Assembly: GCA_019116585.1 (NCBI GenBank)
Contig: DXBJ01000004.1
Location: 1-34,554 of the forward strand
Direction of reading: 5' to 3'
Length of the DNA stretch: 34,554 bases
Source of the DNA: Candidatus Faecalibacterium gallistercoris
Lineage (GTDB): Bacteria > Bacillota > Clostridia > Oscillospirales > Ruminococcaceae
Below, one piece after another: positions 16,619-34,554 of this stretch. The notes below the pieces were generated by a model. That model did not search any database. It was not told the origin of the DNA and saw only the letters and a program-made list of their open reading frames with translations. Each line of letters begins with the position of its first letter. The stretch's first letter is position 1. Position numbers and translations under genes: made by a program.

Positions 16619-16633
16619 GCTTTTGCGACACGC
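16619..16633 (-). repeat. Partial inverted copy of the dispersed repeat
   Basis: The reverse complement, GCGTGTCGCAAAAGC, is identical to 7996-8010 in repeat copy 1. It sits between the DUF3021 stop and the terminator. Confidence 0.6.
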
Positions 16634-16635
16634 CA

Positions 16636-16668
16636 AAACGCCCCTCTCCCGCTGGGAAAGGGGCGTTT
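16636..16668. terminator. Bidirectional terminator between convergent genes
   Basis: AAACGCCCC (16636-16644) pairs with GGGGCGTTT (16660-16668), extended inside by CTCCC/GGGAA pairing, with T-rich sequence after it on the plus strand. It separates DUF3021 (+) from the P1 peptidase gene (-) and can serve both. Confidence 0.8.
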
Positions 16669-16686
16669 CTTTGTGCGTTTGGGGAT

Positions 16687-17655: not shown

Positions 17656-17731
17656 AAGCGCCTCCTGTTCTTACACAAAAGTCAGCGGGCCGCCGGACGG
17701 GGCGGCGGCGCATCGGGCAGACGCGCCGGCG

Positions 17732-18085: not shown

Positions 18086-18148
18086 GGGTCGCGCTCCTTT
18101 CCCGGGCAGCGCGGAACGCCTTGGCCGGCTCCCGCTCTGCCCCAAAAG

Positions 18149-18174
18149 GGCGCGGACGGTGGCCCGTCCGCGCC
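18149..18174 (-). terminator. Terminator of the TRAP operon
   Basis: GGCGCGGACGG (18149-18159) pairs perfectly with CCGTCCGCGCC (18164-18174) around a 4-base loop. On the minus strand CTTTTGGGG follows. It lies 40 bases after the dctM stop. Confidence 0.75.
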
Positions 18175-18213
18175 TGAAGTACAGAGTGATTCAACTGCAG
18201 GGGCTGGCTGCGA

Positions 18214-19539
18214 TCAGCCAAACCATGCCGGGGTGACCTGCGGGACATAGCCAAAGAGCTTGGGGATGAACAGGCTGATGTCGGGGATGAAGGTGATGAG
18301 CAGCAGGGCTGCCACCATGCACAGATAGAAGGGCATGGTCGACTTGACGATGGAGCCCATGGGCCGCTTGGCCACGGCTGCGCCGATGAACAGGACCGAG
18401 CCGACCGGCGGCGTCAGCAGGCCGATGCCGCAGTTCAGCATGACGATGATGCCAAACTGGATGGGGTCGATGCCGATCGAGGTGGCAATGGGCAGCAGGA
18501 TGGGGGTGGCGATCAGGATGATGGGCGCCATATCCATGATGCAGCCCAGGAACAGCAGGATCAGGTTGATGAGCAGGGCCAGCAGGATCGGGTTGTCGGT
18601 CACGCTGGTGATGGCGTTGGCCGCCAGATCCGGCACGTGCAGGGCGGTCATGCAGTAGCCGAACACGTTGGAGGTGGCGATCAGGATCAAGACGATGGAC
18701 AGGGTGTGGACCGCGCTGTCCAGCTCTTTCCATACGCCCTTCAGGTCCAGGCCCTTGTAGACGAACAGGGCGACGAACAGGGAGTAGAACACGGCGATGG
18801 CGGCGGACTCGGTGGCGGTGAACCAGCCGGCGGCCACGCCCACCACAACGATGATGATCGCGCCGGCCGCCCAGATGGACTGGCCCAGCTGGTGGATCAG
18901 GTTCTTGATGCTGAACTTATCGCCGCGGGGGTAGTTGTTTTTGACGGACAGGATGTAGACGCCCACCATCAGGCTGACGGCCAGGACGCCGCCGGGGAGG
19001 TAGCCAGCCAGGAACAGGCTGCCCACCGAGATGCCGCCGGCGGTGGTGGCGTAGATGACCATGTTGTGGCTGGGAGGCACCAGGATGCCCTCCACCGAAG
19101 AGGTGATGGTGATGGCGGTGGAAAAGTCGGCGTCGTAGCCCTGGTCCACCATCATGGGGATCAGGATGGCGCCCAGGGAGGCGGTGTCGGCCGCCGCCGA
19201 GCCCGAGATGCCGCCAAAGAAGTACGAGTCAAGGACGTTGACCATGCCCAGGCCGCCGCGCATCCAGCCGACGCAGGCATTGGCCAGCGCCACCAGCTTG
19301 TCGGACAGGCCGCCCGAGCCCATCAGCATGCCCATGGTGATGAAGAAGGGCACCGCCATCAGGCTGTACGAGCTGATGCCCTTGACCATCTGCTGGCAGA
19401 CGGTGGCCAGGCTCAGCCCCTGGTACATCAGGCAGAAGATCGAGGACAGCGCCACCGAATAGGCGATCGGGAAGCGCAGCAGGATCATGACCAGGAACGA
19501 GACCAAAAGGATCGCAATAGCGGGTACGTTGACTGCCAT
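18214..19539 (-). CDS. dctM: TRAP transporter large permease subunit (DctM)
   Basis: A 441-residue, about 12-segment membrane protein of the DctM/SiaM large subunit family, which drives Na+-coupled import. Recognisable parts are the N-terminal FPIAYSVALSS, PFFITMGMLMG, the FFGGISGSAAADTASLGAI motif (near residue 108), the SSVEGILVPPSHNMVIYA motif (near 148), and GLLTPPVGSVLFIGAAV near 365. Its start is 1 base from the DctQ stop, so the two are translationally linked. Substrate specificity resides in the binding protein. Confidence 0.94.
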   Translation of the reverse strand: MAVNVPAIAILLVSFLVMILLRFPIAYSVALSSIFCLMYQGLSLATVCQQMVKGISSYSLMAVPFFITMGMLMGSGGLSDKLVALANACVGWMRGGLGMVNVLDSYFFGGISGSAAADTASLGAILIPMMVDQGYDADFSTAITITSSVEGILVPPSHNMVIYATTAGGISVGSLFLAGYLPGGVLAVSLMVGVYILSVKNNYPRGDKFSIKNLIHQLGQSIWAAGAIIIVVVGVAAGWFTATESAAIAVFYSLFVALFVYKGLDLKGVWKELDSAVHTLSIVLILIATSNVFGYCMTALHVPDLAANAITSVTDNPILLALLINLILLFLGCIMDMAPIILIATPILLPIATSIGIDPIQFGIIVMLNCGIGLLTPPVGSVLFIGAAVAKRPMGSIVKSTMPFYLCMVAALLLITFIPDISLFIPKLFGYVPQVTPAWFG

Positions 19540-19540
19540 A

Positions 19541-20062
19541 TCACACTTCCTCCTTCAAGCAGATGCCGCGGATCTCCTCGTAGATGCACTCCAGCTCAAA
19601 GACGATCATCGCAATGCCGGCCAGCGGCACCGGGAAGTACATCCAGAAACGGGATACGTTGGGCATCGAAACATAGGTGCCCCGGGCGCCGATGGTGGTG
19701 GCGTACTGCAGGCCGATCACCAGCATCACCACGCCCAGCGCCAGGACGGCCACGTCGGACAGGATGTTCAGGAAGTGGAGCATCGGCTTGGGGATGTAGC
19801 GGTCGAACGCATCCATCCGGATGTGCTCCTTGTGGCGGATGGCGATGGCCGCCGACAAAACGGCCATGTAGCTCATCAGGGTCAGGACGACCTCCTCGGT
19901 CCAGGAGGGCGAGGTGATGAACGGGATATAGCGGCCCAGCACCGAATAGCCAGTGATGCAGATATCCGCGATCAGCAGCAGCTTGCAGATGGTCATGACG
20001 ATCTTGTCCGTCATGTCATAAATGGGGCGGAGCTTGTCCATTGCCGCGAAGAATTGTTTCAT
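19541..20062 (-). CDS. dctQ: TRAP transporter small permease subunit (DctQ)
   Basis: About 173 residues with four hydrophobic segments, of the DctQ family. The characteristic region WTEEVVLTLMSYMAVLSAAIAI is split here around residue 63, followed by KEHIRMDAF, a conserved DctQ motif. I chose the ATG at 20062, which has a GGGGGA site 7 bases upstream; a start 21 bases earlier lacks one. It works with DctM and DctP. Confidence 0.9.
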   Translation of the reverse strand: MKQFFAAMDKLRPIYDMTDKIVMTICKLLLIADICITGYSVLGRYIPFITSPSWTEEVVLTLMSYMAVLSAAIAIRHKEHIRMDAFDRYIPKPMLHFLNILSDVAVLALGVVMLVIGLQYATTIGARGTYVSMPNVSRFWMYFPVPLAGIAMIVFELECIYEEIRGICLKEEV

Positions 20063-20090
20063 CAGGATTCCCCCTTCTATCAAAATATGC

Positions 20091-20114
20091 GGGGCGGCAT
20101 GTTCGGGCCGCCCC
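20091..20114 (-). terminator. Stem-loop between dctP and dctQ
   Basis: GGGGCGGC (20091-20098) and GCCGCCCC (20107-20114) form a stem in the 80-base gap between dctP and dctQ, followed by ATATTTTG on the minus strand. It probably gives partial termination or protects the dctP message, making binding protein in excess over permease. Confidence 0.6.
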
Positions 20115-20142
20115 GCCCACGTTATTTTGATGCAGGCTCCTG

Positions 20143-21219
20143 TCAGGCCATGTCAACCAGCTGCTGATACAGGTCCTCCAGGCCGGCGGTGTTGTCGGTG
20201 ATGACCTGGGCGCAGGCGGCCTGCCACTCGCTCTTGTCGGGCACGTCCACCACGTTGCAGCCCTCGGCCTTCAGCTCTTCCAGCACGCGGTTCTCCTCGT
20301 CCTCCGACAGGCTGGCGTTGAACTCCTGGGACAGGCGGCCGGCTTCCATCACGGCCTCCTGCTGGCTGGCGGTCAGCTTGCCCCAGGCGTTGTTGGTGAT
20401 GACCACCTGGATCGCGCCCAGGGTGTGGCCGTCCAGGATCAGGTTGTTGGCCACTTCGGGGAAGGCGTTGGACGCATAGTTGGCGATGGGCTGCTCGGCG
20501 CCGTCCACCACGCCGGTCTGCAGCGCGGAGTACAGCTCGTTGAAGGAGACGACGGTGGGGATGGCGCCCAGGCCCTCGACCAGGCCGTTCATGACGGGGT
20601 CGTTGGACACGCGCAGCTTCATGCCCGCCAGGTCGCCGATGCCCGAGACGGGGTCGACGGTGAAGAAGTGGCGGAAGCCCTCCTCGCCGTAGAAGATGCC
20701 GCGGACAGGCAGGCCCAGCTCCTGGGGCTCGTTCAGGAAATCGGGGGCCAGGTCGCTGTTGGCAAAGTTCCACCAGTGCTCACGGCTGACGAAGGTGTAG
20801 GGCAGGCTGAGCAGCATGGACTTCTGGCAGCCGTAGCTGGTCAGGGCAAAGGCCGAGATGCGGGACAGGTCGATGGTGTCGCCGCCGGCCAGGATGTTGT
20901 CCAGGACATCGTTCTCCGAGCCCAGCACGCCCGAGGCCTGCAGGTCGATGGTGATGGAGCCGCCGGACAGGGACTCTACCTGCTCTTTGAAGTAGGAAGC
21001 GGTCTGGCCGACGATGGTGTCCAGAGGGTTGACCTCCGCATAGACCAGGGTCACGGCGGGGTCGGCCGAAGCGTCGCCGGAAGCGGCGCCGCCGGCCGCG
21101 CTGGAGGCGGTGCCGGCTGCGGTGCTGCTGCTGGAGCCGCCGCCGCAGGCGGTCAGGACGCCGGCTGCGCCAAGCGCTGCGGATGCTGCCAGAAACGAAC
21201 GACGGGAAATCATCTTCAT
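20143..21219 (-). CDS. dctP: TRAP transporter substrate-binding lipoprotein (DctP)
   Basis: A 358-residue extracytoplasmic solute receptor. The signal peptide MKMISRRSFLAASAALGAAG has both a twin-Arg-like RR and a lipobox ending LTAC (Cys near residue 25). A Gly/Ser/Ala-rich linker follows to ~50, then the DctP fold. The conserved Arg that binds the substrate carboxylate is probably in GMKLRVSND near residue 195. AAGGAGG precedes the start. It is first in the dctPQM operon. The substrate is an organic acid; a sugar acid is suggested only by the nearby KdgF-like cupin. Confidence 0.93.
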   Translation of the reverse strand: MKMISRRSFLAASAALGAAGVLTACGGGSSSSTAAGTASSAAGGAASGDASADPAVTLVYAEVNPLDTIVGQTASYFKEQVESLSGGSITIDLQASGVLGSENDVLDNILAGGDTIDLSRISAFALTSYGCQKSMLLSLPYTFVSREHWWNFANSDLAPDFLNEPQELGLPVRGIFYGEEGFRHFFTVDPVSGIGDLAGMKLRVSNDPVMNGLVEGLGAIPTVVSFNELYSALQTGVVDGAEQPIANYASNAFPEVANNLILDGHTLGAIQVVITNNAWGKLTASQQEAVMEAGRLSQEFNASLSEDEENRVLEELKAEGCNVVDVPDKSEWQAACAQVITDNTAGLEDLYQQLVDMA

Positions 21220-21308
21220 AAGTAGTGTCCTCCTTAACGTTTTCCTCTTTCTTGCACGGGCGGCCGCGGTGCCGCCGCTGGTTCCTGTTTAGTAATATAT
21301 CACATTTC

Positions 21309-21340
21309 GTTGTGCAAAACTATTGGTTTTTTCACACAAC
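21309..21340. promoter_or_regulatory. Inverted repeat in the TRAP operon promoter region
   Basis: GTTGTG (21309-21314) and CACAAC (21335-21340) flank AAAAC/GTTTT inner arms, in an AT-rich stretch 90-120 bases before dctP. A TATATT-like -10 for dctP is near 21296. It is a plausible operator for a transporter regulator; no candidate regulator is adjacent. Confidence 0.4.
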
Positions 21341-21386
21341 TTTGCCTCAATTTTTTGTATACATAACCAATAACCACCGCCAGAGC

Positions 21387-21415
21387 TTGCAAAAAATTGC
21401 ATTTTGCCATATAGT
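21387..21415 (+). promoter_or_regulatory. Promoter of the YcxB-like gene
   Basis: TTGCAA (21387-21392), 17 bases, TATAGT (21410-21415), about 60 bases before the start at 21479. Confidence 0.6.
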
Positions 21416-21478
21416 TGAGGAAAGATATTTTTGCCGCCTGTCCCGGCCTGCCGGGCCGCGGCCCCAAGGAGCAGGACC

Positions 21479-22021
21479 ATGAAACAGCTTTCCATCTACG
21501 TGCCCGTCCAGATCCGGGCGGCCGACTTCCGCAGCTTTGCCCTTTTCGACACCTTCCGGCACAAGGGGCTGTGGCGGCGGCCGGCCCTTTTCCTCGCCAT
21601 CATGGGGGTGTCGGCCATCCTGTGCTACTCCCGCTACCCCCAGGAAGGCGCCCTGCTGCTGGGCACCATCCTGGCGGTGCTGGGGCTGGCCCTGCCCCTG
21701 ATCTGGTACCTGAGCTACGAGCACAGCATCCGCACCCAGTCCAAAAAGATGGGCCTGCTGAAGGGCCCCCGCCGGGCCTACACCCTCATCTTCCAGGACG
21801 ACGGCATCCAGGTCAGCCCCGACCAGGGCAAGACCTTCACCCCCCTGAGCTGGGACCAGGTGACCGGCGTCTACCGGCGCAGCGGCATCACTTACCTCTA
21901 TGTGGGGGACCATGCCTACCTGCTGCCCCACAGCCAGGCCCGGGAAGGGGCCGGCCCCCTCTGGGACATGATGAAACGCTGCCTGCCGGCCGGCAAACTG
22001 CACGACCTGAACCCATCGTAA
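21479..22021 (+). CDS. YcxB-like membrane protein
   Basis: A 180-residue protein. Two adjacent hydrophobic segments near residues 38-55 and 58-78 are followed by a cytosolic beta-rich C-terminal domain with the pattern YTLIFQDDGIQVSP and LSWDQVTGVYRRSG, resembling the YcxB-like/YcxB C-terminal domain of small Firmicute proteins of unknown function. An AAGGAG site sets the start. It is probably co-transcribed with the small gene 39 bases downstream. Confidence 0.72.
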   Translation: MKQLSIYVPVQIRAADFRSFALFDTFRHKGLWRRPALFLAIMGVSAILCYSRYPQEGALLLGTILAVLGLALPLIWYLSYEHSIRTQSKKMGLLKGPRRAYTLIFQDDGIQVSPDQGKTFTPLSWDQVTGVYRRSGITYLYVGDHAYLLPHSQAREGAGPLWDMMKRCLPAGKLHDLNPS

Positions 22022-22060
22022 CCACCGCGCCCCATCCGGCGCCCGAAAGGAGTGTCCGCT

Positions 22061-22291
22061 ATGCTGCCCATGTTCCGCAAGTCCTTCTGGGTCCCCTACC
22101 CGGAGGGCGACGTCTACCCCACCGTGTCCAAAGCCCGGGAGGCCATCTCCCGCTACTGCGAGCAGAACGGCTGGTCCTGCTCCTTCCCCGGGGAGGACGA
22201 AGCCCTGATCGACGGCGCGCTCTATGAAGTCTACCGCGGCTACGAGACCGGGAGCCGCGGGAACTACGGCGTCAAGTGCCGGGCCAAGTAA
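22061..22291 (+). CDS. Small protein, possibly DUF4318
   Basis: A 76-residue soluble protein: MFRKSFWVPYPEGDVYP, a helix (AREAISRYCEQNGW), then a strand pair ending YEVYRGYETGSRG and GVKCRAK. The layout recalls DUF4318, short Firmicute proteins of unknown role, but I am not certain. It has a good AAAGGAG site 7 bases before the ATG, which supports it as a real gene. It is the last gene before a terminator shared with the opposite strand. Confidence 0.65.
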   Translation: MLPMFRKSFWVPYPEGDVYPTVSKAREAISRYCEQNGWSCSFPGEDEALIDGALYEVYRGYETGSRGNYGVKCRAK

Positions 22292-22318
22292 GCCGCCCTC
22301 GCCGGCCAGGCAGGGTGT

Positions 22319-22451: not shown

Positions 22452-23380
22452 TTATGCGTGCATCATTTCAGCGGCGGCCTGGGCCATGCGCTCGTTTACC
22501 GCATCCGCCTCGGCCTCGCTCTTGCCCACGGCCGAGAGGTACACCTTGATCTTGGGCTCGGTGCCGGAGGGGCGCACCATGAACTTGGCGCCGCCTGCCA
22601 GGCGGTATTCCAGCACATCCGCGGCGGGCAGGCCGGTGCCGCCGGCGCTGTAGTCCACCACCGACTCCACCGCCAGCCCGGCGATGGAGGCCGGGGGCGC
22701 CTTGCGCAGGCCGGCCATCAGGGACTGCATCACCGTCATGCCGGCAGCCCCCTCAAAGGAGAAGCTGCACAGGGCGTTGCGGTACCAGCCGTATTCGTCG
22801 TACAGGGCGTTGATGGCGTCCAGCAGGCTCATACCCTTGCCGGCGTAATAGGCGGCGGCCTCGCAGGCCAGCATCACGGCGTTGACCGCGTCCTTGTCCC
22901 GGACGTGGGCGCCGGACAGGTAGCCGTAGCTCTCCTCAAAGCCAAAGATGTAGCGGTCCTTCTGGCCGGCGGCCTCCAGCAGGCCGATCTGCTCGCCGAT
23001 GAACTTGAAGCCGGTCAGGGTGCGCCGCAGCTCCACGCCGTACTTCGCGCACACGGGGGTGGCCATGTCGGTGGAGACGATGGTGGTCACCGCCACGGGG
23101 TCCTTGGGCATATCCCCCGTTTGCAGGCGGGTGCGGCAGATGTAGTCCAGCAGCAGCACGCCCATCTCGTTGCCGGTGATCAGGCGGTGTACAGGTTCAT
23201 CCGGTTGGTGCCGGCGCCGATGACGCCCCGCAGGCCCCCGGTGCCAAAGGCCAGGTCACGGTAAAAGCGGTCGGTCACCGCATCCGGGTCGCTGCGGACT
23301 GCCTCCAGCTCGGCGGCAAGGTCGGGGTCCTCCACCGCGCGGGCCAGCCAGAGGTCGAGAGTGGACTGATACTGCATCAT
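22452..23380 (-). pseudogene. Phosphoglucomutase/phosphomannomutase with internal deletion
   Basis: The N-terminal ~66 residues (23180-23380) have the family start (FYRDLAFGTGGLRGVIGAGTNRMN). They then stop at TGA where the frame changes. The C-terminal ~240 residues resume directly as ITGNEMGVLLLDYICR and include the sugar loop GFEESYG and the phosphate loop RPSGTEPK. The whole catalytic middle (phosphoserine loop and DxDxDR metal site, roughly 260 residues of the usual ~570) is missing. It would have interconverted mannose 1-phosphate or glucose 1-phosphate with the 6-phosphate, linking GH130 products to glycolysis. It starts 34 bases after the CE2-like esterase, in the same minus-strand operon. 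The product should be inactive. Confidence 0.85.
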
Positions 23381-23414
23381 GGTAGCTCATTTCAAAATGC
23401 CAGATTTTATACCA

Positions 23415-24533
23415 TTATAAGGGAAAACGCTGTTCCCCGGTCGACAGGATGCTGCGCAGCCGTTCGGTCAGGACCTGGGCGGCCTGACGGTGGCAGGCTG
23501 CGCCGGGATGCTGGCGCGCGCCCATGGTGTCCGGCGTGGCGGCGGGCAGGGCGAGGTAGCACATCCGGCTGTCCCCGCACTCGGCGGCGGCGCGGGCCAC
23601 GGCGGCCCGCAGCACTGCGCCCATCCGCCCTTCGCCCAGCATCCCGAAGGCCCACACGATCCAGGCATCCGGGTTGCGGGCCCGCACCTTTTTCAGCACG
23701 TCCACCGCGGTCTGCTCCAGTTCGGCCAGGTGTTCGGGCGTGGGGCGCTGGGCGTAGGTTTTGCCGGTGGCGGGGTCGGTCCAGGGCGGGTTGCCCATGG
23801 CGCCGTCGTCGTTGGTGCCCAGGTTCAGGATCACGGCGTCGGCCTTCCAGCTGTCAAAGCGGTAGGGCTGCTGCGCGCCCAGGGCCTCGTTATGGGGCCC
23901 GGCGGCCAGGCCGCAGACGGTGTCGTAGTAATCCATCACCCGGCGGCGGGGGTCGTTGTCCCAGCTGGACAGCAGGCCCCAGCCGCTCTGGCTCACGATC
24001 CGCCATTCGGCGTGGAGGGCGTCGGCGGTCATCCGGGCATAGTGGTTGACCGCGCTGAAGAACGGGGCGATCCAGTCCTCTTCACACACTGCGCCGAGGG
24101 CCCCCTCCCCGCTGGTGATGCTGTTGCCCACGAACTCCAGACGGCAGGCCGGCTCCGGCAGGGGCAGAAAATCGCCCCCCTCAAAGGCCAGCGCCTCGAT
24201 CAGCAAAAAGTGGTCCGGGTCGTCGTGCATGGCCTGCACGTCCTTCAGCACCCGGACGTGCTTGGGCACCCCGGAGGTCATGCCCCGGAACAGGGTGACC
24301 CGGCTCCGCCCCGGCTGCACCGGGAAGCGGGCGATCCACGCGCCGTTCAGCTCGACGCTGATCCACGGCTCGTATAAGGTAAAGCCTGCCTCCAGGCAGA
24401 GGGCCAGCTCGCTGCCGGTGAACAGGCACTCGATCCCGGAAGCGGTGTAAAAACATGGGACGGGGCCCTGGCTCACCGGCTGGCGGCCCAGCAGCCGCAC
24501 GGCGGGCAGGGAACGGATCGGCGCAGTCGTCAT
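23415..24533 (-). CDS. CE2-like SGNH acetylesterase (acetyl-mannan esterase candidate)
   Basis: A 372-residue protein. The N-terminal beta-sandwich (~1-125) precedes an SGNH hydrolase domain, the CE2 arrangement. Block I GNSITSGEG carries the nucleophile Ser near residue 137, block III is LNLGTNDDG near 239, and the Asp/His region is near the C-terminus with His in RQHPGAACH. There is no signal peptide, so it acts on imported acetylated oligosaccharides. CE2 esterases of gut Clostridia act with partner esterases in mannan loci. It is divergent from the LacI gene across an AT-rich gap with repeated TAGCTTA motifs, and first in an operon with the broken mutase. It looks intact. Confidence 0.84.
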   Translation of the reverse strand: MTTAPIRSLPAVRLLGRQPVSQGPVPCFYTASGIECLFTGSELALCLEAGFTLYEPWISVELNGAWIARFPVQPGRSRVTLFRGMTSGVPKHVRVLKDVQAMHDDPDHFLLIEALAFEGGDFLPLPEPACRLEFVGNSITSGEGALGAVCEEDWIAPFFSAVNHYARMTADALHAEWRIVSQSGWGLLSSWDNDPRRRVMDYYDTVCGLAAGPHNEALGAQQPYRFDSWKADAVILNLGTNDDGAMGNPPWTDPATGKTYAQRPTPEHLAELEQTAVDVLKKVRARNPDAWIVWAFGMLGEGRMGAVLRAAVARAAAECGDSRMCYLALPAATPDTMGARQHPGAACHRQAAQVLTERLRSILSTGEQRFPL

Positions 24534-24579
24534 AAGAAGCCTCCCTATTTACCTAAAAAATCATAAAATTTACTTTGTG

Positions 24580-24605
24580 ATTATAGCTTATCATATTTAG
24601 CTTAG
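24580..24605. promoter_or_regulatory. Tandem candidate LacI operators in the CE2/LacI divergent region
   Basis: TTATAGCTTA (24581-24590) and TTTAGCTTAG (24596-24605) are tandem copies of a TTAGCTTA-like motif. A minus-strand TATAAT (24580-24585) for the esterase operon overlaps the first copy. A further related copy (TAACTAAGCT, 24697-24706) follows the LacI promoter. The same motif recurs at 25920-25951. Confidence 0.5.
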
Positions 24606-24661
24606 CGTTGCAATAGTTTTTTCCTAAATTCAAATCAAAACGCAAACAAATTTAACAGCCA

Positions 24662-24690
24662 TTGACGTTGCTGCCCAGTGCTGTTATACT
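24662..24690 (+). promoter_or_regulatory. LacI regulator promoter
   Basis: TTGACG (24662-24667), 17 bases, TATACT (24685-24690); near-consensus. TAACTAAGCT just downstream may allow autoregulation. Confidence 0.75.
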
Positions 24691-24790
24691 TTACTTTAAC
24701 TAAGCTCCGTGCGATGTTGCCTGAAAGTCCGCTGAGGCTTTGGCGTCAACCGTCTATTTTCAGGTGCAAACGACAGAAAAGAGGAATCTT

Positions 24791-25786
24791 ATGGCAAAGC
24801 GAGTGCGCATGGCGGATATTGCAGAGAAGTTGGGGATCAGCATCGTATCCGTCAGCAAAGGGCTGGCCGGCAAAGACGGCGTCAGCGAGGAAATGCGCGA
24901 AAAGATCCTGGAGACGGCCAAGGAAATGGGCTATCTCCCGCCGTCCAAATCCTCGGCGGCGCAGCGCAGCATAAACATCGGCATCCTGGTGGCCGACCGC
25001 CATTTTGGGGACAACACCTTCTACGCCAATCTCTACCGGTCGCTGGTCAGCCACTGCAACCGGCTGAAATACCAGTGCATGCTGGAGATCGTCATGCCCC
25101 ACGCGGAGGACGGCTGCGTCCTGCCGCTGATCCTGGCGGGGGGCAGCGTGGACGCGCTGGTGTTCATGGGCGAGTTCCACCGCAGCTACCTCGCCGCCAT
25201 GCTGAAAAACAACCTTCCCTTCGTCTTTTTGGATTTTTACGACGACGTCATCGCCGGGGACAGCGTCCAGAGCGACAACGTCAGCGGCAGCTTCCAGATC
25301 ACCGAGCACCTGCTGCAGACGGGCTGCCGCAAGATCGCCTTTGTGGGCAGCGTGCGGGCCACCAGCTCGATCATGGACCGGTACCTGGGCTACTGCCGGG
25401 CCCTGCTGCAGGCCGGCATCGAGCCCCGGGCCGACTGGCGGCTGGAGGACCGCGATGCCGACGGCAGCTGGATCCCCCTGTCCCTGCCCCGGGAGATGCC
25501 GGACGGCTTTGTGTGCAACTGCGACGAGGTAGCCTTCAACCTGGTGGAAAAGCTGAAAAAAGCCGGCTATCGCATCCCCCAGGACATCGCCGTGACCGGC
25601 TACGACGACCATCGTTTTTCCACCATCTGCACCCCCCAGCTGACCAGCTACCGGGTGGACGTGGACGGCATGGCCAACGCCGCCGTGAACCTGCTGGCCC
25701 GCAAACTGAACGGCAAGGCCGTGCCCGCGCCCATCACCCTGGTGCCCGGCACCATCGTCTACCGGGAATCCACGCGGGTTAAATAA
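24791..25786 (+). CDS. LacI-family transcriptional regulator of the mannan locus
   Basis: About 331 residues. The N-terminal helix-turn-helix reads MADIAEKLGISIVSVSKGLAG (split near residues 7-27), followed by the hinge helix and a periplasmic-binding-type effector domain from ~60 (NIGILVADRHFG) with the usual LacI motif VTGYDDHRFS near 270. The ATG at 24791 follows AAAGAGGAA; the longer frame upstream is non-coding. It sits between the divergent arms of the locus, with its own promoter and terminator, so it probably represses both arms and is released by a manno-oligosaccharide or sugar phosphate. The effector is inferred. Confidence 0.9.
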   Translation: MAKRVRMADIAEKLGISIVSVSKGLAGKDGVSEEMREKILETAKEMGYLPPSKSSAAQRSINIGILVADRHFGDNTFYANLYRSLVSHCNRLKYQCMLEIVMPHAEDGCVLPLILAGGSVDALVFMGEFHRSYLAAMLKNNLPFVFLDFYDDVIAGDSVQSDNVSGSFQITEHLLQTGCRKIAFVGSVRATSSIMDRYLGYCRALLQAGIEPRADWRLEDRDADGSWIPLSLPREMPDGFVCNCDEVAFNLVEKLKKAGYRIPQDIAVTGYDDHRFSTICTPQLTSYRVDVDGMANAAVNLLARKLNGKAVPAPITLVPGTIVYRESTRVK

Positions 25787-25813
25787 AATAAATAAAGTAA
25801 CTTTTCTTCGCTG

Positions 25814-25846
25814 AAATGCAGGCAAACCTTGGTTTTGCCTGCATTT
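25814..25846 (+). terminator. Terminator of the LacI gene
   Basis: AAATGCAGGCAAA (25814-25826) pairs perfectly with TTTGCCTGCATTT (25834-25846) and is followed by TTTG. It insulates the regulator from the catabolic operon. Confidence 0.9.
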
Positions 25847-25916
25847 TTTGTGCACACCGCATCCGAATGTTGCAGGATAACCAAAAATCAGGCTAAAGTA
25901 TAGGTAATTGCGCCAA

Positions 25917-25961
25917 ATTATTAGCTTATATATTGACTTTTAATTAGCTAAATACTATACC
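25917..25961 (+). promoter_or_regulatory. Promoter and operators of the mannan catabolic operon
   Basis: TTGACT (25933-25938), 17 bases, TATACC (25956-25961). ATTAGCTAAA lies inside the spacer (about 25943-25952) and TTAGCTTA just upstream (25921-25928), both matching the motif in the CE2/LacI gap. This is the classic repressor arrangement. The stretch 25851-25979 holds only this regulatory region. Confidence 0.65.
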
Positions 25962-25979
25962 AAACACGCAGACAGATCG

Positions 25980-26334
25980 GTGCGGGCAGCTGGCGTCACC
26001 TCCATCCCCAAGACGCCCACCGAGTTCCTGGACGCTTTGCAGAAGGTGCGCGACTACGATCCCAGCATCGCCCCCCTGTACACCAACTACGCCGCCGGCT
26101 GGACCATGAGCGCCTGGGACACCTACATCGGCGGCGGCGCCACCGGCGACCCCGACTGGATGGGCATCGTCATGCCCCAGACCATGGACCCCTTCTCCCC
26201 CGGCGTGCCCACCGGCGACCCCGAGAGCGGCCCCTACGCCGTCTACAACATCCTGTACGAGGCTGTCAAGCGCGGCCTGACCGAGGCTGATCCCACCACC
26301 ACCGACTGGGAGGGCAGCAAGACCCGCATGAACA
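25980..26334 (+). pseudogene. Fragment of ABC sugar-binding protein
   Basis: About 118 residues from the middle of an extracellular solute-binding protein. Family-typical pieces are AAGVTSIPKTPTEFLDAL, LYTNYAAGWTM, YAVYNILYEAV and TTTDWEGSKTRMNNG. The N-terminus (signal peptide, ~150 residues) and the C-terminal ~150 residues are absent. The frame begins abruptly about 18 bases after the promoter -10, so the leader, ribosome site and first third of the gene are gone. At ~26334 it runs into a permease fragment in another frame. It originally bound manno-oligosaccharides, by context. Confidence 0.8.
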
Positions 26335-26730
26335 ATGGGCACCGACGTCATCACCATCTACATCTTCCTGCAGTTCTTCGAGAACCTGTCCCCCACCCTG
26401 GACGAAAGCGCCATCCTGGACGGCTGCACCTACTTCGGCGTCTTTTTCAAGATCCTGCTGCCTCTGCTCAAGCCGGCCATCGTCACCAGCGCCATCCTCA
26501 AGGGCGTGGGCACCTACAACGAATACTACATGGCCAACCTCTACCTGCAGGATAAGACCCGCTACCAGGTGGTGTCCACCTCGCTGTACGTGTTCTCCGG
26601 GCCTATGGGCAGCCAGTACAACTACATCTGCGCAGGCGTCATCATCACCATCATCCCCGCCCTGATCATCTTCCTGCTGTGCCAGGACCAGATCTACAGC
26701 GGCATGGCCGCCGGTGCGGTCAAGGGCTGA
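26335..26730 (+). pseudogene. C-terminal fragment of ABC sugar permease (MalG type)
   Basis: About 131 residues: the C-terminal half of a carbohydrate ABC transporter permease. The EAA-loop region is SAILDGCTYFGVFFKILLP, followed by transmembrane segments ending IITIIPALIIFLLCQ and the typical C-terminal IYSGMAAGAVKG. The N-terminal ~150 residues and any preceding first permease gene are missing. The reading frame opens with an ATG (26335), but the preceding sequence is the binding-protein fragment. A functional importer cannot be made from this copy. GH130_2 follows after 105 bases. Confidence 0.85.
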
Positions 26731-26835
26731 TCCTTCGTCATTCCCCATCTTCTTCATCTCCTTCATCATGGCCCGGCCCTCTGCTTTCGACCGGCGGGGG
26801 GCCGGGGCTGGGAGGGAGCTCTCTCAGGAGGTTTT

Positions 26836-27568
26836 ATGAGCAAGACCATTCTTTACTGCGACGCTTTGCCGGGCATCCCCTGGCAGGACAAGCCCGACGG
26901 GGCCGAGCTGCCGCTGTGGCGCTACACCGAAAACCCCGTCATCCGCCGCAACCCCCTGCCCGGCGTGGCCCGCATCTTCAACAGCGCGGTGGTCCCCTTT
27001 GAGGGCGGCTACATCGGCGTGTTCCGCGGCGAGCAGACCAACGGCATCCCCTTTATCTACCTGGGCCGCAGCGCCGACGGCATCCACTGGGATTTTGACC
27101 GTGACAAGATCCCCTTTGTGAACGAGCAGGGCGAGCCCTTCATGCCCCCCTACGCCTACGACCCCCGCCTGGTCAAGGTGGAGGACACCTACTACATCAT
27201 CTGGTGCCAGGACTTCTACGGCGCTTCCATCGGCATCGCCAAGACCCGGGACTTCCAGACCTTTACCCGGGTGGAGAACCCCTTTGTCCCCTTCAACCGC
27301 AACGCGGTGCTCTTCCCCCGCAAGATCAACGGGATGTTCACCCTGCTCAGCCGCCCCTCCGACTCGGGCCACACCCCCTTCGGCGACATCTTCCTCAGCC
27401 AGAGCCCGGACATGGAGTTCTGGGGCCGCCACCGGGCGCATCGCCCTCTACTACGGCTGCGCCGACAGCTATGTAGGTTTGGCTTTCACGACGGCCGACG
27501 AAGTGGTAGACTATATCAAAGCCCACGATCAGACCAGCGACGCAGACCGCGAACTGGGCCTGCGCTGA
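26836..27568 (+). pseudogene. GH130_2 beta-1,4-mannooligosaccharide phosphorylase, deleted and frameshifted
   Basis: The N-terminal ~200 residues are GH130_2-like, with the catalytic-region motif YAYDPRLVKVEDTYYIIW near residue 108 and FNRNAVLFPRK near 155. After SPDMEFWGRHR the frame breaks. The next frame resumes at ATGRIALYYGCADSYVG and gives a normal C-terminus (~47 residues). Roughly 80 residues of the five-bladed propeller are missing. The two frames meet at GCCACCGG (27428-27435), which reads sensibly both ways. The intact enzyme would release mannose 1-phosphate from manno-oligosaccharides. The GGAGG site before the ATG is intact. Confidence 0.85.
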
Positions 27569-27639
27569 ATCCGACGCCCCGGCGCCCGCTCCAGCCCCTG
27601 CTGGGGCAGGCGCCTGTGTGAAAAAAGGAGGCTTTTCCC

Positions 27640-28821
27640 ATGCCACGCATCAAACAGGCGGCACAGGAGATGCTGAACAACGTCATCCTGCCCTTCTGGA
27701 TGTCCCTCAAAGACGAAACGCACGGCGGCTACTACGGCCTGGTGGACTTTGACCTCCAGGTGGACCGGCAGGCCGAAAAGGGCTGCATCCTCAACAGCCG
27801 CATCCTCTGGTTCTTTTCCGAGGCGGCCATGCTCACCGGCCGGGCGGACGCCGCCGCCTGCGCCCGCCATGCCTACGAGTGGTTCGAGGACCACTGCTTT
27901 GACCGGGAAAACGGCGGCGTCTACTGGAGCTGCGACGCTCTGGGCCGCCCGCTGGACACCACCAAGCACACCTACAACCAGGCTTTTGCCATCTACGCCC
28001 TGTCCGCCTACTACCGGCTGACCGGGCAGCAGGCCGCCCTGGACCGGGCGCTGGAGCTGTTCCGCCTCATCGAGAACCGCTGCACCGACGCGGAAGGCTA
28101 CCTCGAAGCCTTTACGGTGGACTGGCAGCCCGAGAGCAACGAAAAGCTCTCGGAAAACGGCGTCATGGCCGAAAAGACCATGAATACCCTGCTGCACGTC
28201 TTTGAGGGCTACGCCGGCCTCTACCAGGCCAGCCGCGACCCCTCGGTGGGGCAGGCCATGCGCCGCATCCTGGAGATCTACGCGGACAAGATCTATTCCC
28301 CGGAGCTGCACCGGCAGCTGGTCTTTTTTGACCGGCACTACCAGTCCATCATCGACCTGTACAGCTACGGCCACGACATCGAGTCCAGCTGGCTGATCGA
28401 CTGGGGCTGCGCCCTGCTGGGCGATACCGCCCTGACCGCGAAGATCACCGCCATCAACTCCGACCTTGCCCGCAGCGTCTACGCCCACGCTTACCGGGAC
28501 CACTCCCTGCTCAACGAGTGCGAGCGCGGGGTGGACAACACCACCCGGGTCTGGTGGGTCCAGGCCGAGGCGGTGCTGGGCTTTGTGAACGAATACGAGA
28601 AATCCGGCGGCGAAGCCTACGCTGCCGCCGCCGCGGACATCTGGCATTACATCACCGACAAGCTGGTGGACAAGCGCCCCGGCGGCGAGTGGTTCTGGTC
28701 GGTGGACGCCAGCGGCGTGCCGGCCAGCCGCCAGCCCATTGTGGAGCCGTGGAAATGCCCCTACCACAACGGGCGCATGTGTATGGAACTGATCAGGAGG
28801 GACCCCGATGTCACAGTCTAA
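27640..28821 (+). CDS. Cellobiose 2-epimerase (AGE family)
   Basis: A 393-residue (alpha/alpha)6-barrel enzyme that epimerises the reducing-end sugar of beta-1,4 disaccharides, here mannobiose to mannosylglucose, the substrate of the following GH130_1. Family residues visible are KHTYNQ (near 110), MNTLLHVFE with its His near 187, [10 protein letters not shown] with a catalytic His near 246, WWVQAEA near 305, and [11 protein letters not shown] with the last catalytic His near 377. Length is normal for cellobiose 2-epimerase and the neighbours exclude an N-acetylglucosamine role. AAAGGAGG precedes the start. It overlaps the next gene by 14 bases. It looks intact. Confidence 0.9.
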
Positions 28822-29995
28822 ACTGCACCCCGAATACCTGCGCCAGAAGGCCCTGCAGGAGGCCCTGCTGGCCCGCAAGAACCATAAGTCCGACTGGTAC
28901 AACGGCATCTACGACCGGTGGGACTACCCCGTCCTCACCCGCGAGCACATCCCCCTGGAGTGGCGGTTCGACCTTGACCCCGCCTCCAACCCCTACTTTA
29001 TGGAGCGGCTGGGGGTGAACGCGGTGTTCAACGCCGGCGCCATCGAGCTGGACGGCAAGTTCTACCTGGTGGCCCGGGTGGAGGGCAACGACCGCAAGAG
29101 CTTTTTTGCGGTGGCCGAGAGCGACAGCCCGGTGGACGGCTTCCGCTTCTGGGACAAGCCCGTCCAGCTGCCCGACACCTGCCCCGAGGAGACCAACGTC
29201 TACGATATGCGGCTGACCAAGCACGAGGACGGCTGGATCTACGGCGTGTTCTGCTCCGAGAGCAAGGATAAGTCGAACCCCGCCCTGTCCGCCGCCGTGG
29301 CCGCCGCCGGCATCGTCCGCACCCGGGACCTCAAAACCTGGGAGCGGCTGCCCAACCTGGTCACCCTGCGCAGCCCCCAGCAGCGCAACGTGGACCTGCT
29401 GCCCAGCGTTGTCAACGGCAAGTACGCCTTCTACACCCGCCCCATGGACGACTTCATCGACACCGGCTCGGGCGGCGGCGTAGGCTTTGGCCTGTGCGAG
29501 GACATCACCCACCCCGTCATCGACGAGGAGATCATCACCAGCCCCCGCCGCTACCACACCATCACCGAGGCCAAGAACGGCGAGGGCGCCACCCCCATCA
29601 AGACCGAAAAAGGCTGGCTGCACATCGCCCACGGCGTGCGCAACACCGCCGCCGGGCTGCGGTATGTGATCTATGTGTTCGTCACCGATCTGGCCGAGCC
29701 CTGGAAGGTCATCGCCGAGCCCGCGGGCTTCCTGATCGCGCCCCGCGGCTGGGAGCGGATAGGGGACGTGTCCAACGTGGTGTTCACCAACGGGGCCATC
29801 GCCCGGGACAACGGCGAGCTGTACATCTACTACGCCGCCAGCGACACCCGGCTGCACGTGGCCAGCACCACCGTGGACCGGATGCTGGACTTCGCCTTCC
29901 ACACCCCGGCAGACCCCCTGCGCGGCCGTGACTGCGTCGCCCAGCGGTGCGCCCTGATCGACCGGAACCGCGCCTTCCTGGCAAGCCTGAAATAA
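28808..29995 (+). CDS. GH130_1 4-O-beta-mannosylglucose phosphorylase
   Basis: A 395-residue enzyme converting mannosyl-beta-1,4-glucose and phosphate to mannose 1-phosphate and glucose in the cytosol. It matches the GH130_1 subgroup closely: [18 protein letters not shown] near residue 28, [17 protein letters not shown] near 60, [13 protein letters not shown] with the catalytic Asp near 130, [14 protein letters not shown] near 195, [16 protein letters not shown] near 215 and [14 protein letters not shown] near 350. The length is full. It is translationally coupled to the epimerase (14-base overlap), the conserved order in gut Firmicutes mannan loci. It is intact, unlike GH130_2. Confidence 0.94.
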
Positions 29996-30067
29996 TCACA
30001 CCCGGAGAGCGGCCGGCCCCCTTTGTTGGCGGCCGGCCTGCCCGCTCCCACGGAAGAGGATGCTGCT

Positions 30068-31621
30068 ATGATCGTCCATACCGATACATGCTTTACCCTG
30101 CACACCGCCCACACCAGCTACCAAATGGCCGTGGGCCCCGGCGGCGCGCTGCTGCACACCTACTACGGCCCCCGCCTGCCCGACCGCGCCCCCGACCTGA
30201 CCGACGGCCGGCGCCCCCACGACGACCCCGGCTGCTGGACCGACCTGCTGCCCAAAGAGTGGTCGGCCCCCGGCGCAGCCGACCACCGCACGCCCCCCTG
30301 CATCCCCGCCTTTGCCGACGGCTCCGAGACCGCCGAGCTGACCTTTGTGCAGGCGGAGGCGGCCGCAGGCAAACCGGCCCTGCCGGGGCTGCCCGCCTTC
30401 CGGGACGGAGACGGGGTCGAGACCCTGACCCTCACCCTGCGGGACGTCTTTGGGCTGGAAGTGCAGCTGCGGTACACGGTCTACGAGGCCGAGGACCTGA
30501 TCACCCGGACCGCGGTCTACACCAACACCTCTTCCCTCCCGCTGACGCTGCACAAGGCGGCCTCCCTCTGCCTGGACTTTGCCCCGGGCCCCATGGACCT
30601 GATCACCCTGAACGGCACCTGGGCGGCCGAGCGCACCCCCGAGCGCGCGCCCCTGCGCTGGGGCATCCAGAGCATCGGCAGCACCCGGGGCATCCCCGGC
30701 CACGCCCACAATCCCGCCGCCATCCTCTGCACCCCCGACTGCACCGAGACGGCGGGCTCCTGCTGGGGCTTTGCCCTGGTGTACAGCGGCAACTTCCTGA
30801 TCGAGGCCCAGCGCGCCGACGCCGGCCAGCGGCTGGTGATGGGCATCCATCCCTACCACTTCCACTGGCAGCTGGAGCCCGGGGCCAGCTTTGCCGCCCC
30901 CGAGGCCGCCATGGTCTATTCGGACCAGGGCCTGGGCGAGATGAGCCGCCGCTTCCACAACGCCATCCGCACCCGTCTGCTGCCGCCCCGCTGGCAGGAC
31001 ATGAAAGCGCCGCGCCCGGTGCTGCTCAACAGCTGGGAGGCCTGCTACTTCGACTTTGACGAAGCAAAGCTGCTGGCCCTGGCCGGCGCGGCCCGGCAGG
31101 CGGACATCGACCTGTTCGTGCTGGACGACGGCTGGTTCAAAGGGCGCAACGGCACCGCCTCCAGCCTGGGCGACTGGACTGCGGACCGGACCAAGCTGCC
31201 CGACGGCCTGCCCGGCCTGTGCGCCAAACTCAACGCCATGGACCTGGGCCTGGGCCTTTGGGTCGAGCCGGAGGCGGTCAGCCCCGACAGCGATCTGTAC
31301 CGCGCCCATCCGGACTGGGCCTTTGCGGTGCCGGGCCGCCAGCCCTGCCAGATCCGTTACCAGTACAACCTGGACCTAAGCCGCCCGGAGGTGGTGGACG
31401 GCGTCTGGCAGCAGCTGGAGCAGGTGCTGCGCAGCTGCCCCATCCAGTATCTGAAATGGGACATGAACCGGGCCCTGGCCGACGTCTACAGCCCGGCCCT
31501 GCCCGCCGCCCCGGAGGGCGGCAGCTGGTATCTGGCCCGCCGCATCACCGAAGGGGCCGAGGGCAAGCCCGCCCTGGACCGGGGCGACCGGCTCTGGGCG
31601 CGGCTGACCGCCCCTGACTGA
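30068..31621 (+). pseudogene. Truncated GH36 alpha-galactosidase lacking the acid/base half
   Basis: 517 residues against the usual ~730. The N-terminal beta-supersandwich (1-~310) and the first half of the barrel are present: LNSWEACYFDFDE, LFVLDDGWFKGRN, GLWVEPEAVSPDSD and the nucleophile motif IQYLKWDMNRAL near residue 472. Soon after SPALPAAPEGG the family sequence ends and a ~30-residue unrecognised tail runs to the stop. The CSGGGGRFD acid/base motif, the rest of the barrel and the C-terminal domain are absent, so hydrolysis is not expected. The intact enzyme would strip alpha-1,6-galactose from galactomannan oligosaccharides. The start at 30068 follows GAAGAGG. Confidence 0.8.
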
Positions 31622-31638
31622 GAGGAGTGTTGTACGAT

Positions 31639-33138
31639 ATGACGCTGAGACCTGCCGCTGTTTTTTCGGACCACATGGTGCTGCAGCGGGAGCGGCCCAT
31701 CCCCCTCTGGGGCACGGCCGCCCCCGGCGCCCAGGTAGCCTGCCGGCTCGAGCCCGCCGTTGCCGCCGCCAGCGGCCAGGCGGACGGCGCGGGCAGCTGG
31801 CGCATCACCCTGCCGGCCCTGCCGGCCGGCGGACCCTACACCCTGACCATCACCGCCGGCAGCCAGACTGTCTGTTTGGATGACGTGTGGCTGGGCGAAG
31901 TATGGCTGGCCGGCGGGCAGAGCAACATGGAGCTGCCCCTGGCCAACAGCCGCGACGGCCAGGCCGTCCTGGCCCGCTGCGCCGACCCCCGCCTCCACTT
32001 TTACGAGACCCCCAAGGTCACCACCCCCGAGGCCGCCCAGGCCGCCCCCTCCGGCTGGCAGAAGGTCACGCCGGACACCGCGGCCAACCTCTCGGCCGTG
32101 GCCTACTACGCGGCGGCGGCCCTGGCCCGGGCGCTGGATGTCCATGTAGGCATCCTGGAATGTTTCTGGGGCGGCACCTACGCCCACTGCTGGATGCCCC
32201 GCCGGCTGCTGGAGACTTTCCCCGAAGGGCAGGCCCGCATCCGCTGGTACGACGCCCGGGTGGGCGATAAGACCGACGCCCAGTTCGAGGCCGAGTGCGC
32301 CGCCTACCAGGCCAGCGTGGACGACTGGAACCGGCGGATCGCCGCCCGCCGCGCCGCCGACCCGGATGTGAGCTGGACGGTGCTGAACGCCGACTGCGGC
32401 CTGTATCCCTGGCCGCCGCCGGCGGGGCGCACCGGCTTCCAGCGGCCGGGCAACCTGTTCGACAGCATGCTGCGCCGCATCTGCCCCTACGGCATCCGCG
32501 GCTTCTGGTACTACCAGGGCGAGCAGGACGAGGAATGGCCCCGGGACTACCAGGCCGAACTGACCCAGCTGGTCCGCTGCTGGGACGATGCGGCGGGCAG
32601 CCTGCCCTTCCTGCTGGTGCAGCTGCCCATGTACGCCACCGGCGCAGGGCCGGACAGCTGGCCCCTGCTGCGCCAGGCCCAGGCCCGCGTGGCCGCCGCC
32701 GAGCCCAACGCCGGACTGGTGGTGCTGGCCGACTGCGGCGAGGCGGACAACATCCACCCCGTCGACAAGGAGCCGGCGGGCCGGCGGCTTGCCCTGCTGG
32801 CGCTGGAAACCGTCTACGGCCAGCCGGTGGCGGGCCGCTCGCCCCAGCTGCTGGAGGCCCGGCGGGGCCCCGGCCCGGGGCAGGTCCTGCTCCGCTTTGC
32901 CCACCACGCCGGCGGGATGCAGGTGCGGGGCGGCGGCGTGCAGCTGGCGGGGGCGGACGGCGTCTTTCGGGACGCCCAGGCCGCCCCGGCCGGCCCCGAC
33001 CGGATCCTGGCCTGCTGCGGCGCCCTCCGGGACCCCTGCGCCGTACGCTACGCCTGGTACAACTACGGCCCCGCCGGCCTGTACGGCGGCACGGGCCTGC
33101 CCGCAGCGCCCTTTGGGCCCCGCACGCTCAACGATTGA
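31639..33138 (+). CDS. SASA-domain acetylesterase (sialate O-acetylesterase family)
   Basis: About 499 residues, apparently complete. The typical start is LRPAAVFSDHMVLQR; a beta-sandwich runs to ~95; the nucleophile motif is GEVWLAGGQSNMELPL (Ser near residue 98). Further on are WYYQGEQDEEW near 297 and the catalytic DNIHPVDK His near 375. Family members remove O-acetyl groups; in mannan loci such SGNH esterases pair with CE2 to deacetylate mannosyl residues, which is more likely here than sialate. No signal peptide is seen. The ATG at 31639 was chosen (AGAGGAG 11 bases upstream); a GTG at 31627 is in frame. It follows the truncated GH36 by 17 bases. Confidence 0.85.
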   Translation: MTLRPAAVFSDHMVLQRERPIPLWGTAAPGAQVACRLEPAVAAASGQADGAGSWRITLPALPAGGPYTLTITAGSQTVCLDDVWLGEVWLAGGQSNMELPLANSRDGQAVLARCADPRLHFYETPKVTTPEAAQAAPSGWQKVTPDTAANLSAVAYYAAAALARALDVHVGILECFWGGTYAHCWMPRRLLETFPEGQARIRWYDARVGDKTDAQFEAECAAYQASVDDWNRRIAARRAADPDVSWTVLNADCGLYPWPPPAGRTGFQRPGNLFDSMLRRICPYGIRGFWYYQGEQDEEWPRDYQAELTQLVRCWDDAAGSLPFLLVQLPMYATGAGPDSWPLLRQAQARVAAAEPNAGLVVLADCGEADNIHPVDKEPAGRRLALLALETVYGQPVAGRSPQLLEARRGPGPGQVLLRFAHHAGGMQVRGGGVQLAGADGVFRDAQAAPAGPDRILACCGALRDPCAVRYAWYNYGPAGLYGGTGLPAAPFGPRTLND

Positions 33139-33182
33139 CCCCGGGACGCACCTGAAGTCGCCCCCGGCCGGGAGGTATTGCC

Positions 33183-33815
33183 ATGAAGAACCGACACCTG
33201 AACGATTCCCCTTTCTTCCGCTACATGAGCTTTGCCGGAGACGTGTTCCTGCTGCATCTATGCTGGCTGCTGGGCTGTGTCCTTGCGGTCACGGCCAGGG
33301 CGTCCACGACGGCGGCGTTCTCCGTGGCAGGCAAAATGGCCGCCAAGCAGGAACACCGTGTCTTTCACGATTACGGGCGGGCCTTCCGGCGGGACTTCGC
33401 CCAGGCCACCCGGGTGTGGGTGCTGTTCATCCTGCTGGGGCTTTTGATCCTGGCCGATTATCAGCTGGGCCTGGCCAACAGCGGCGCTTTGGGCGGCGTG
33501 CTGATCGCGGTGGCCGCGGCGGCAGCCCTGCTGTGGCTGTGCGCGGTGGGCGGCAGCTTTGCCCTGTTGGGCCGCTTTGTGTACGCCCGCAGCCGCGACC
33601 TGCTCAAGGACAGCCTGCGCATCAGCCTGGCCCGGCCCAAGGCCGCCCTGATCTGGGTGGTGGGCATGGCGCTGCTACCCCTGCTGTACGGCCCCGTGCC
33701 CAACCTGTTTTGGTATCTCTTCCCCCTGTAGCTGCTGATCGGCGGCGGCCTGACCATCACGGCGGCCGCCTTTGCCCTGCGGCCCGCCTTTGCCCAACTG
33801 GAACAACAGCATTGA
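33183..33815 (+). pseudogene. YesL/DUF624 membrane protein with in-frame amber stop
   Basis: YesL-like DUF624 protein, a four-to-five-TM family commonly encoded beside sugar ABC transporters, of unknown function. The start MKNRHLNDSPFFRYMSFAGD is typical. After FWYLFPL a TAG (33729-33731) interrupts the frame. Reading through restores LLIGGGLTITAAAFALRPAF and ends at TGA 33813-33815, giving the normal ~210-residue length. A single CAG-to-TAG change would explain it. Translation to the TAG would yield 182 residues without the last membrane segment. GGGAGG precedes the start. Confidence 0.75.
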
Positions 33816-33835
33816 ACGCTGGAGGATCTTGATCT

Positions 33836-34194
33836 ATGCAGCAAATCCACGCCATCAATTTCGCGCCCTTTGCCCCCGGGGGGCCTTTGCCGGCCCCGAA
33901 GCCGCCGGCGAACTGTGCCGGATGCAGGAGCTGACCGGCGCCGACGCCGGCTGCATGCAGATCGCGGGCTCTGCGGCCGTCCCCAACAACTGGGGGCTGC
34001 AGGGCGCGCCGGACCCGGAAGAACAGGCCCGCTGGTACAACGCCCTTTTGACGGCCTGCCAGGCCAGACCCTGGTTTGGCGGCACCGCCTTTTGGGACTG
34101 GCCGCTGCCGGCCCATGCGGCAGCAGACCGGTACGCCTTTATCCAGGGGCCTGCGCTGGATCGGATCCGCGCATTCTATTGTGCAGGGAAATGA
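33836..34194 (+). pseudogene. GH113-like beta-mannanase remnant
   Basis: Both ends of a GH113-type protein joined with the core missing. The N-terminal MQQIHAINFAPFAP is followed by a frameshift at CCCCCGGGGGG (about 33868-33878; one C short of the frame giving APRGAFAGPEA). The other frame continues ELCRMQELTGAD, then jumps to AGCMQIAGSAAVPNNWG and the C-terminus QARWYNALL, PWFGGTAFWDW and ALDRIRAFYCAGK. About 190 residues, including both catalytic Glu regions, are absent. GGAGG lies before the ATG. GH113 enzymes cleave beta-mannan oligosaccharides. The family call rests on the INFAPF and PWF...FWDW motifs. Confidence 0.68.
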
Positions 34195-34343: not shown

Positions 34344-34554
34344 AGCGTGTCGAAAAACGACACGCTCCAAGGGGAACCCATTTCTGCCCGCATACGCGGG
34401 ACAGAAATTCCTTCCCCCTGGTAGTTGCGGTTCCCTGCTTTTGCTGCGCCCGTCGCAGCGGGCTTGCAAAAGGCAGACCGCTGCCCCTGCTCCGCTTCGG
34501 CTGTTTCGTCCGCAGGACGCGCCTCAGCTTCGCAGTCCCTGGGGACAAAATTTG
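34344..34554. repeat. Dispersed palindromic repeat, copy 2, with insert, cut by the window edge
   Basis: AGCGTGTCG/CGACACGCT forms a perfect hairpin at 34344-34366. A long hairpin from CCAAGGGGAA (34367) to TTCCCCCTGG (34412-34421) follows, matching 7995-8073. A ~110-base segment (about 34425-34536) absent from copy 1 comes next and contains the 17-mer inverted at 51-67. The sequence then rejoins copy 1 at CCCTGGGGACAAAATTT (34537-34553). The element probably continues past the window. Confidence 0.75.

Follow-up and report, generated by a model that had tools for sequence, protein, structure and literature searches.

What does a beta-mannan oligosaccharide locus tell us when most of its genes appear to be cut: has the pathway been lost, or have the cuts been introduced in assembly? 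We have studied this in a stretch of 34,554 nucleotides from Candidatus Faecalibacterium gallistercoris (DXBJ01000004.1; hereafter the window), which is an entire contig (C69) of a draft genome of 2.34 Mb, in 81 contigs and 93% complete. The locus lies at positions 22452-34194, and its gene identities by Pfam bear out the beta-mannan assignment made in the first-pass annotation. We call this genome G000 and six others of the genus G001, G004, G010, G011, G017 and G029; L-numbers denote named loci or stretches. The conclusion that emerges is that this is likely a pseudogenised relative of FpMULL, the mannan locus of Faecalibacterium prausnitzii SL3/3 (PMC8262883), resulting from a recent loss of mannan use by deletion, in parallel in two sister species.

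The genes run in the order phosphomutase, CE2, LacI, binding protein (SBP), permease, GH130_2, epimerase, GH130_1, GH36, CE17, DUF624 and GH113. Their integrity was assessed by tblastn using 13 reference proteins from intact loci, 12 of them from a Gemmiger locus (L019) and the mutase from a locus of Faecalibacterium sp. I4-1-79 (L015). Eight of the 13 ancestral genes are truncated or lost in G000: phosphomutase, SBP, permease 1 (perm1), permease 2 (perm2), GH130_2, GH36, DUF624 and GH113. The other five (CE2, LacI, epimerase, GH130_1 and CE17) are full length, with 98-100% of the reference covered. The features are listed here, and were assigned by Pfam and reference comparison except where another basis is given.

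22452-23188, minus strand: phosphomutase, C-terminal fragment, amino acids (aa) 317-561 of 561; lacks about 754 bp present in G004 and G017
23189-23380, minus strand: phosphomutase, N-terminal fragment, aa 10-65, in a different frame from the C-terminal part (reference comparison)
23415-24533, minus strand: CE2-type acetyl esterase, full length; intact in G001 too
24791-25786, plus strand: LacI-family regulator, full length; intact in G001 too
25787-25980, plus strand: intergenic region 5′ of the SBP gene, a probable promoter/operator (alignment, not promoter scan)
25986-26339, plus strand: SBP, middle fragment, aa 179-295 of 465; start removed by a deletion of about 570 bp
26335-26730, plus strand: ABC permease perm2, C-terminal fragment, aa 155-285 of 285
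Junction at about 26338, plus strand: deletion of about 2.0 kb ahead of the perm2 fragment, taking the whole of perm1 (comparison with relatives)
26836-27568, plus strand: GH130_2 phosphorylase, fragments aa 1-200 and 293-339 of 339; out-of-frame deletion of 287 bp at about 27430 (reference comparison)
27640-28821, plus strand: mannobiose 2-epimerase (GlcNAc_2-epim family), full length
28808-29995, plus strand: GH130_1 phosphorylase, full length
30068-31519, plus strand: GH36 alpha-galactosidase, aa 2-493 of 726
31520-31621, plus strand: C-terminus of an unrelated protein, joined in frame to the truncated GH36 (homologue L012:3169-3852)
31639-33138, plus strand: CE17-type acetyl esterase, full length
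33183-33731, plus strand: DUF624 membrane protein, premature TAG at 33729-33731; homology runs on to 33809
33836-34194, plus strand: GH113 remnant, an N-terminal stub carrying a 1-bp frameshift, followed by aa 222-307 of 313; about 555 bp missing (Pfam, reference comparison and a DNA match to G001, through which the stub was found)
34344-34554, no strand: dispersed repeat in which the contig terminates (repeat search)

The lesions comprise six large deletions (in the mutase, at the SBP start, from SBP to perm2, in GH130_2, in the 3′ part of GH36 and in GH113), together with the frameshift in GH113 and the nonsense codon in DUF624; the last, falling late in its gene, is the weakest of the eight. 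The protein whose tail is fused to GH36 has an intact homologue of 227 aa in G004, with no Pfam match, adjoining a phosphomannose isomerase gene. Disabling lesions are thus found in several genes for which relatives retain full-length orthologues. The first-pass annotation had counted seven of some twelve genes as broken; all seven are, but perm1 has been wholly deleted as well, so that the count becomes eight of 13. Its junctions (about 23180, 25978, 26334, 27430, 31530, 33729 and 33873-33935) proved correct to within about 20 bases. GH130_1, GH130_2 (as fragments) and the epimerase share one cluster with CE2, CE17 and the broken GH36, GH113 and mutase, as expected of the FpMULL type. A working ABC importer with its binding protein is not present, SBP and perm2 being fragmentary and perm1 absent, and the locus is thus FpMULL-type by descent rather than a working member.

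A second broken copy is present in G001, the sister genome, which is 99% complete in about 60 contigs. This copy lies on a 148-kb contig (C45), whereas the left flank of the locus in the window (17744-21985) matches a different G001 contig (C23), so the surroundings of the locus differ between the two species. The two copies are about 90% identical in nucleotide sequence. In G001 11 of the 13 genes are broken and only CE2 and LacI are whole. About ten deletions affect the mutase, SBP/perm1, perm1/perm2, GH130_2, epimerase, GH130_1/GH36, GH36/CE17, CE17, DUF624 and GH113, and SBP and CE17 also carry nonsense codons. The two genomes have no lesion in common, and the genes broken in both have different breakpoints. 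Their common ancestor therefore probably had an intact locus, which was then broken twice, independently.

The timing of the loss was estimated from the ratio of nonsynonymous to synonymous substitution rates (dN/dS) between G000 and G001. For the genes intact in both (CE2 and LacI) this is 0.094 (bootstrap 0.061-0.134), for the fragments broken in both 0.151 (bootstrap 0.098-0.223) and for the genes broken in G001 only 0.194 (0.133-0.266); the value pooled over 47 background gene pairs is 0.20. The low ratio of the fragments resembles that of genes under selection, indicating that the lesions arose late in both lineages. Judged by these ratios, the decay is recent, and the slight rise of the fragments over the intact genes points toward some time spent under relaxed selection.

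Alignment shows the region 5′ of the SBP remnant to be conserved in G001 and, in part, in three Gemmiger loci; the conserved elements include a TTGACT motif and an A+T-rich block. A consensus promoter scan called no promoter there. The earlier claim that the regulator, promoters, epimerase, GH130_1 and both esterases survive therefore holds for the genes, which are full length, while for the promoters it is conservation and not the scan that supports it. Of the two readings offered in that annotation, recent, deletion-driven loss with the expression machinery still in place is supported by the low dN/dS, the intact LacI, the conserved 5′ region, the lack of a second GH130 or an intact GH113 elsewhere in the assembly and the independently broken copy in G001.

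In an intact relative, LacI controls the ABC importer, GH113, GH36, CE2 and CE17 trim the imported oligosaccharides, and the epimerase, the two GH130 phosphorylases and the phosphomutase pass mannose into glycolysis. In G000 separate deletions, bounded by short sequence matches, have cut the importer, GH130_2, GH36, GH113 and the mutase, presumably after the lineage had ceased to need the pathway, and the sister species represented by G001 has probably lost the locus independently, with other breakpoints. With these steps cut, the G000 cell has most likely lost the ability to import or metabolise mannooligosaccharides. Growth on mannan may thus have been lost, selection having perhaps been relaxed by host or diet.

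How were the deletions made? Sixteen large deletions are present in the two genomes, and eight of their junctions were aligned with both flanks of a relative. Exact junction homology is 10 bp at the G001 epimerase, about 8 bp at the G001 DUF624 and 5-7 bp at the G000 GH130_2. Among 200,000 random pairs of breakpoints drawn in the locus, 0.02% gave 8 bp or more and 0.1% gave 7 bp or more. At the G001 GH130_1/GH36 junction the match is imperfect. The G001 CE17 junction carries 24 bases of filler (L016:10825-10848), no source for which turned up in the 7 further sequences searched. The other eight junctions were assessed by the overlap of alignment ends, which is an upper bound, allows mismatches and is the largest over several relatives; it is 10, 11, 12, 13, 13 and 16 bp at six of them and not measurable at the G001 mutase. 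The junctions are consistent with slippage or with alternative end joining at short sequence matches, either route being presumed from their form. We also considered other causes. Ku-dependent end joining was rejected, since a Ku gene was found in none of 31 genomes of the genus (G000 included) and the control matched in B. subtilis. Insertion of a mobile element was likewise rejected, as no transposase family appeared in the Pfam scans made. CRISPR self-targeting was set aside because no short, near-exact, spacer-like match occurred among the own-genome matches listed; this check covered the matches listed for the locus and those of the G001 copy (17 of 17 listed), and no dedicated array search was made.

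Is the decay confined to the locus? Across the flank at 2400-22300, alignment to G004 continues for up to 6.9 kb without a break, and alignment to G001 for up to 4.6 kb. We compared 41 stretches of G000 (683 kb of the 2.34 Mb, window included) with 21 stretches of G001 (419 kb), dropping pieces below 100 bp or 72% identity and pairs with fewer than 1,500 aligned bases. Between aligned pieces there are 9 breaks in 6.9 kb of the locus and 11 in 65.9 kb of background, some of the latter being large (about 0.9 to 4 kb on one side). The length ratio is below 0.85 in 6 of the 47 reciprocal-best gene pairs. Two pairs are located at the ends of stretches, 3 show a mild shortfall (0.81-0.83), and one is clearly short (271 versus 113 aa). 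Most pairs are equal in length, and genome-wide decay was not seen in the sampled stretches or gene pairs. Decay would thus be concentrated at the mannan locus. The confinement that had been proposed is supported only for this contig and for the limited sample of 683 kb.

An epimerase match was found in 7 of the 31 genomes of the genus, G000 included. G004 yielded neither SBP nor perm1, and its LacI is missing the N-terminus; G011 has a cut epimerase, with nothing found upstream of it. Those genes that G010, G017 and G029 yielded are close to full length. The stretches examined gave no CE17 match in G004, G010, G011, G017 or G029, no GH113 match in G004, G010 or G011, and no GH36 match in G017 or G029. 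In three Gemmiger loci (L021, L023 and L070) the genes are full length where they lie on the contig, and the mutase was not found. We also surveyed 80 named loci of other genomes for 10 of the 13 genes, using identity floors and dropping short genes at contig edges. Among 373 gene observations 12 rows were flagged, 7 for short genes and 5 for internal stops only. This survey misses some cases, since the broken CE2 and perm2 of L024 surfaced only in other comparisons. L024, from a metagenome-assembled genome (MAG), is a third and differently broken copy (L024:6280-8900), with deletions in CE2, SBP-perm2 and perm2; its LacI, mutase, GH130_2 and epimerase are full length. One clear deletion each was found in L022 and L055.

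Several observations weigh against recent loss by deletion, and some of them lend themselves to other explanations. The G000 assembly is a fragmented and incomplete draft, and strain variants or chimeric reads might have been collapsed into false deletions while the real genes are intact, as the first-pass annotation had itself suggested. All the multiply broken copies that we found (G000, G001 and L024) come from drafts, and the two single-contig genomes that have the locus (G017 and G029) show no fragmented gene. One of the lesions, the GH113 frameshift, is a 1-bp homopolymer indel, and one of the 16 junctions, that in GH36 of G000, shows an overlap of alignment ends of 19-23 bp, mismatches included; eight of the 16, moreover, are judged by overlap alone. 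However, merging by the usual k-mer assemblers takes an exact repeat of at least 21 bp, and junctions at such repeats were not found. Exact identity extends over no more than 10 bp at eight junctions, and the upper-bound overlap is 10-16 bp at six more, so that most are too short for merging of this kind. Nor are the missing segments searched for, those of the mutase, SBP-perm, GH36, GH130_2 and GH113, on any other contig; the first part of the gene of the GH36 fusion partner lay outside the search. Segments still kept by G001 are not on other G000 contigs. For the middle of the mutase there is elsewhere in G000 only an intact general phosphomutase paralogue (on C38), 54% identical to the locus-type reference. 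The SBP-perm1-perm2 stretch and the 3′ part of GH36 were not found elsewhere in the assembly, which has no other GH130 match and no other GH113 match over the cut-off; the second intact mannan locus whose presence had been queried was thus not found for these parts. Two species' assemblies break the same locus at different points, and sampled background pairs are mostly equal in length. We therefore regard collapse by the assembler as unlikely.

The five genes that remain full length, the regulator among them, make a residual role possible. Together with the region 5′ of SBP and the intact paralogue on C38, the intact LacI, CE2, CE17, epimerase and GH130_1 could represent a remodelled, reduced pathway fed by another transporter. 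Yet in G001 the epimerase, GH130_1 and CE17 are themselves broken, with only CE2 and LacI whole, and in G000 the importer and GH130_2 are gone; remodelling appears highly improbable. Other findings that sit uneasily with recent loss by deletion concern its timing and mechanism. Synonymous divergence (dS) of the locus is 0.25-0.29, against a background median of 0.45, which might reflect exchange of the locus between lineages once the species had separated. Exact homology is small (below 5-7 bp) at the G000 mutase, SBP start and SBP-perm2 junctions, and gaps of 10-32 bp inside aligned pieces number 27 in the background and none in the locus. Going beyond two species, G000, G001 and L024 each have several independent internal deletions with nearby genes whole. 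The mannan locus might then be hit repeatedly by clustered deletions in gut Oscillospiraceae, either because its loss is repeatedly favoured or through a preferential deletion process faster than point mutation; this broader idea we consider rather unlikely.

Some further features of the window were observed. The dispersed repeat, of about 210 bp, occurs at 7994-8207 as well as at 34344-34554, and several contigs start or stop in it. It has at least 40 matches in G000 (itself included, many to only an 80-bp part) and many in G001, G004 and G010, with none among the matches listed for G011, G017 and G029. The DUF5131 gene at 2383-3192 has 684 bases that are 99% identical to contig C45 of G004, besides an 88% match on C1 of the same genome, which suggests recent transfer. 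About 1.1 kb with a LytTR-domain gene (15531-16628) is missing from the corresponding place in G010.

Recent and independent loss of the locus in two sister species stands in contrast to the high conservation of Faecalibacterium mannan loci reported for human strains (PMC8262883). The clade includes at least one chicken-gut species by name, G010 (Candidatus F. intestinigallinarum), the host being taken from that name. Diet-linked gene loss becomes testable here, by asking which hosts or feeds accompany the loss. In addition, some 16 large deletions in fresh pseudogenes provide a compact set for the study of deletion spectra in a genus where no Ku was found.

Pseudogene decay in bacteria is biased towards deletion, unused genes being deleted once selection is relaxed. 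The present case differs from this general process in that about 16 large deletions in two genomes crowd a single locus, twice independently, with few small indels or stops. A GH36 enzyme and permeases also belong to FpMULL. That locus further shares with the one studied here GH113, the epimerase, GH130_1, GH130_2, phosphomutase, CE2, CE17 and the binding protein, according to passages of PMC8262883. It has in addition a GH1 isomerase; no such domain appeared in our Pfam scans, and no dedicated search was made. Eight of the 13 genes are broken here, and broken copies of FpMULL are not mentioned in those passages; among the papers returned by literature searches, titles and abstract openings showed no report of mannan-locus decay in Faecalibacterium. 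The intact Gemmiger loci (L019 of Candidatus G. faecigallinarum, L021, L023, and L070 of G. formicilis An723) have the same genes, full length where on the contig; GH36 follows DUF624 in them, whereas here it precedes CE17. Decay by deletion is a known process, and the locus type is known from PMC8262883. What is unusual is the parallel crowding of deletions, with no lesions in common, in two sister species.

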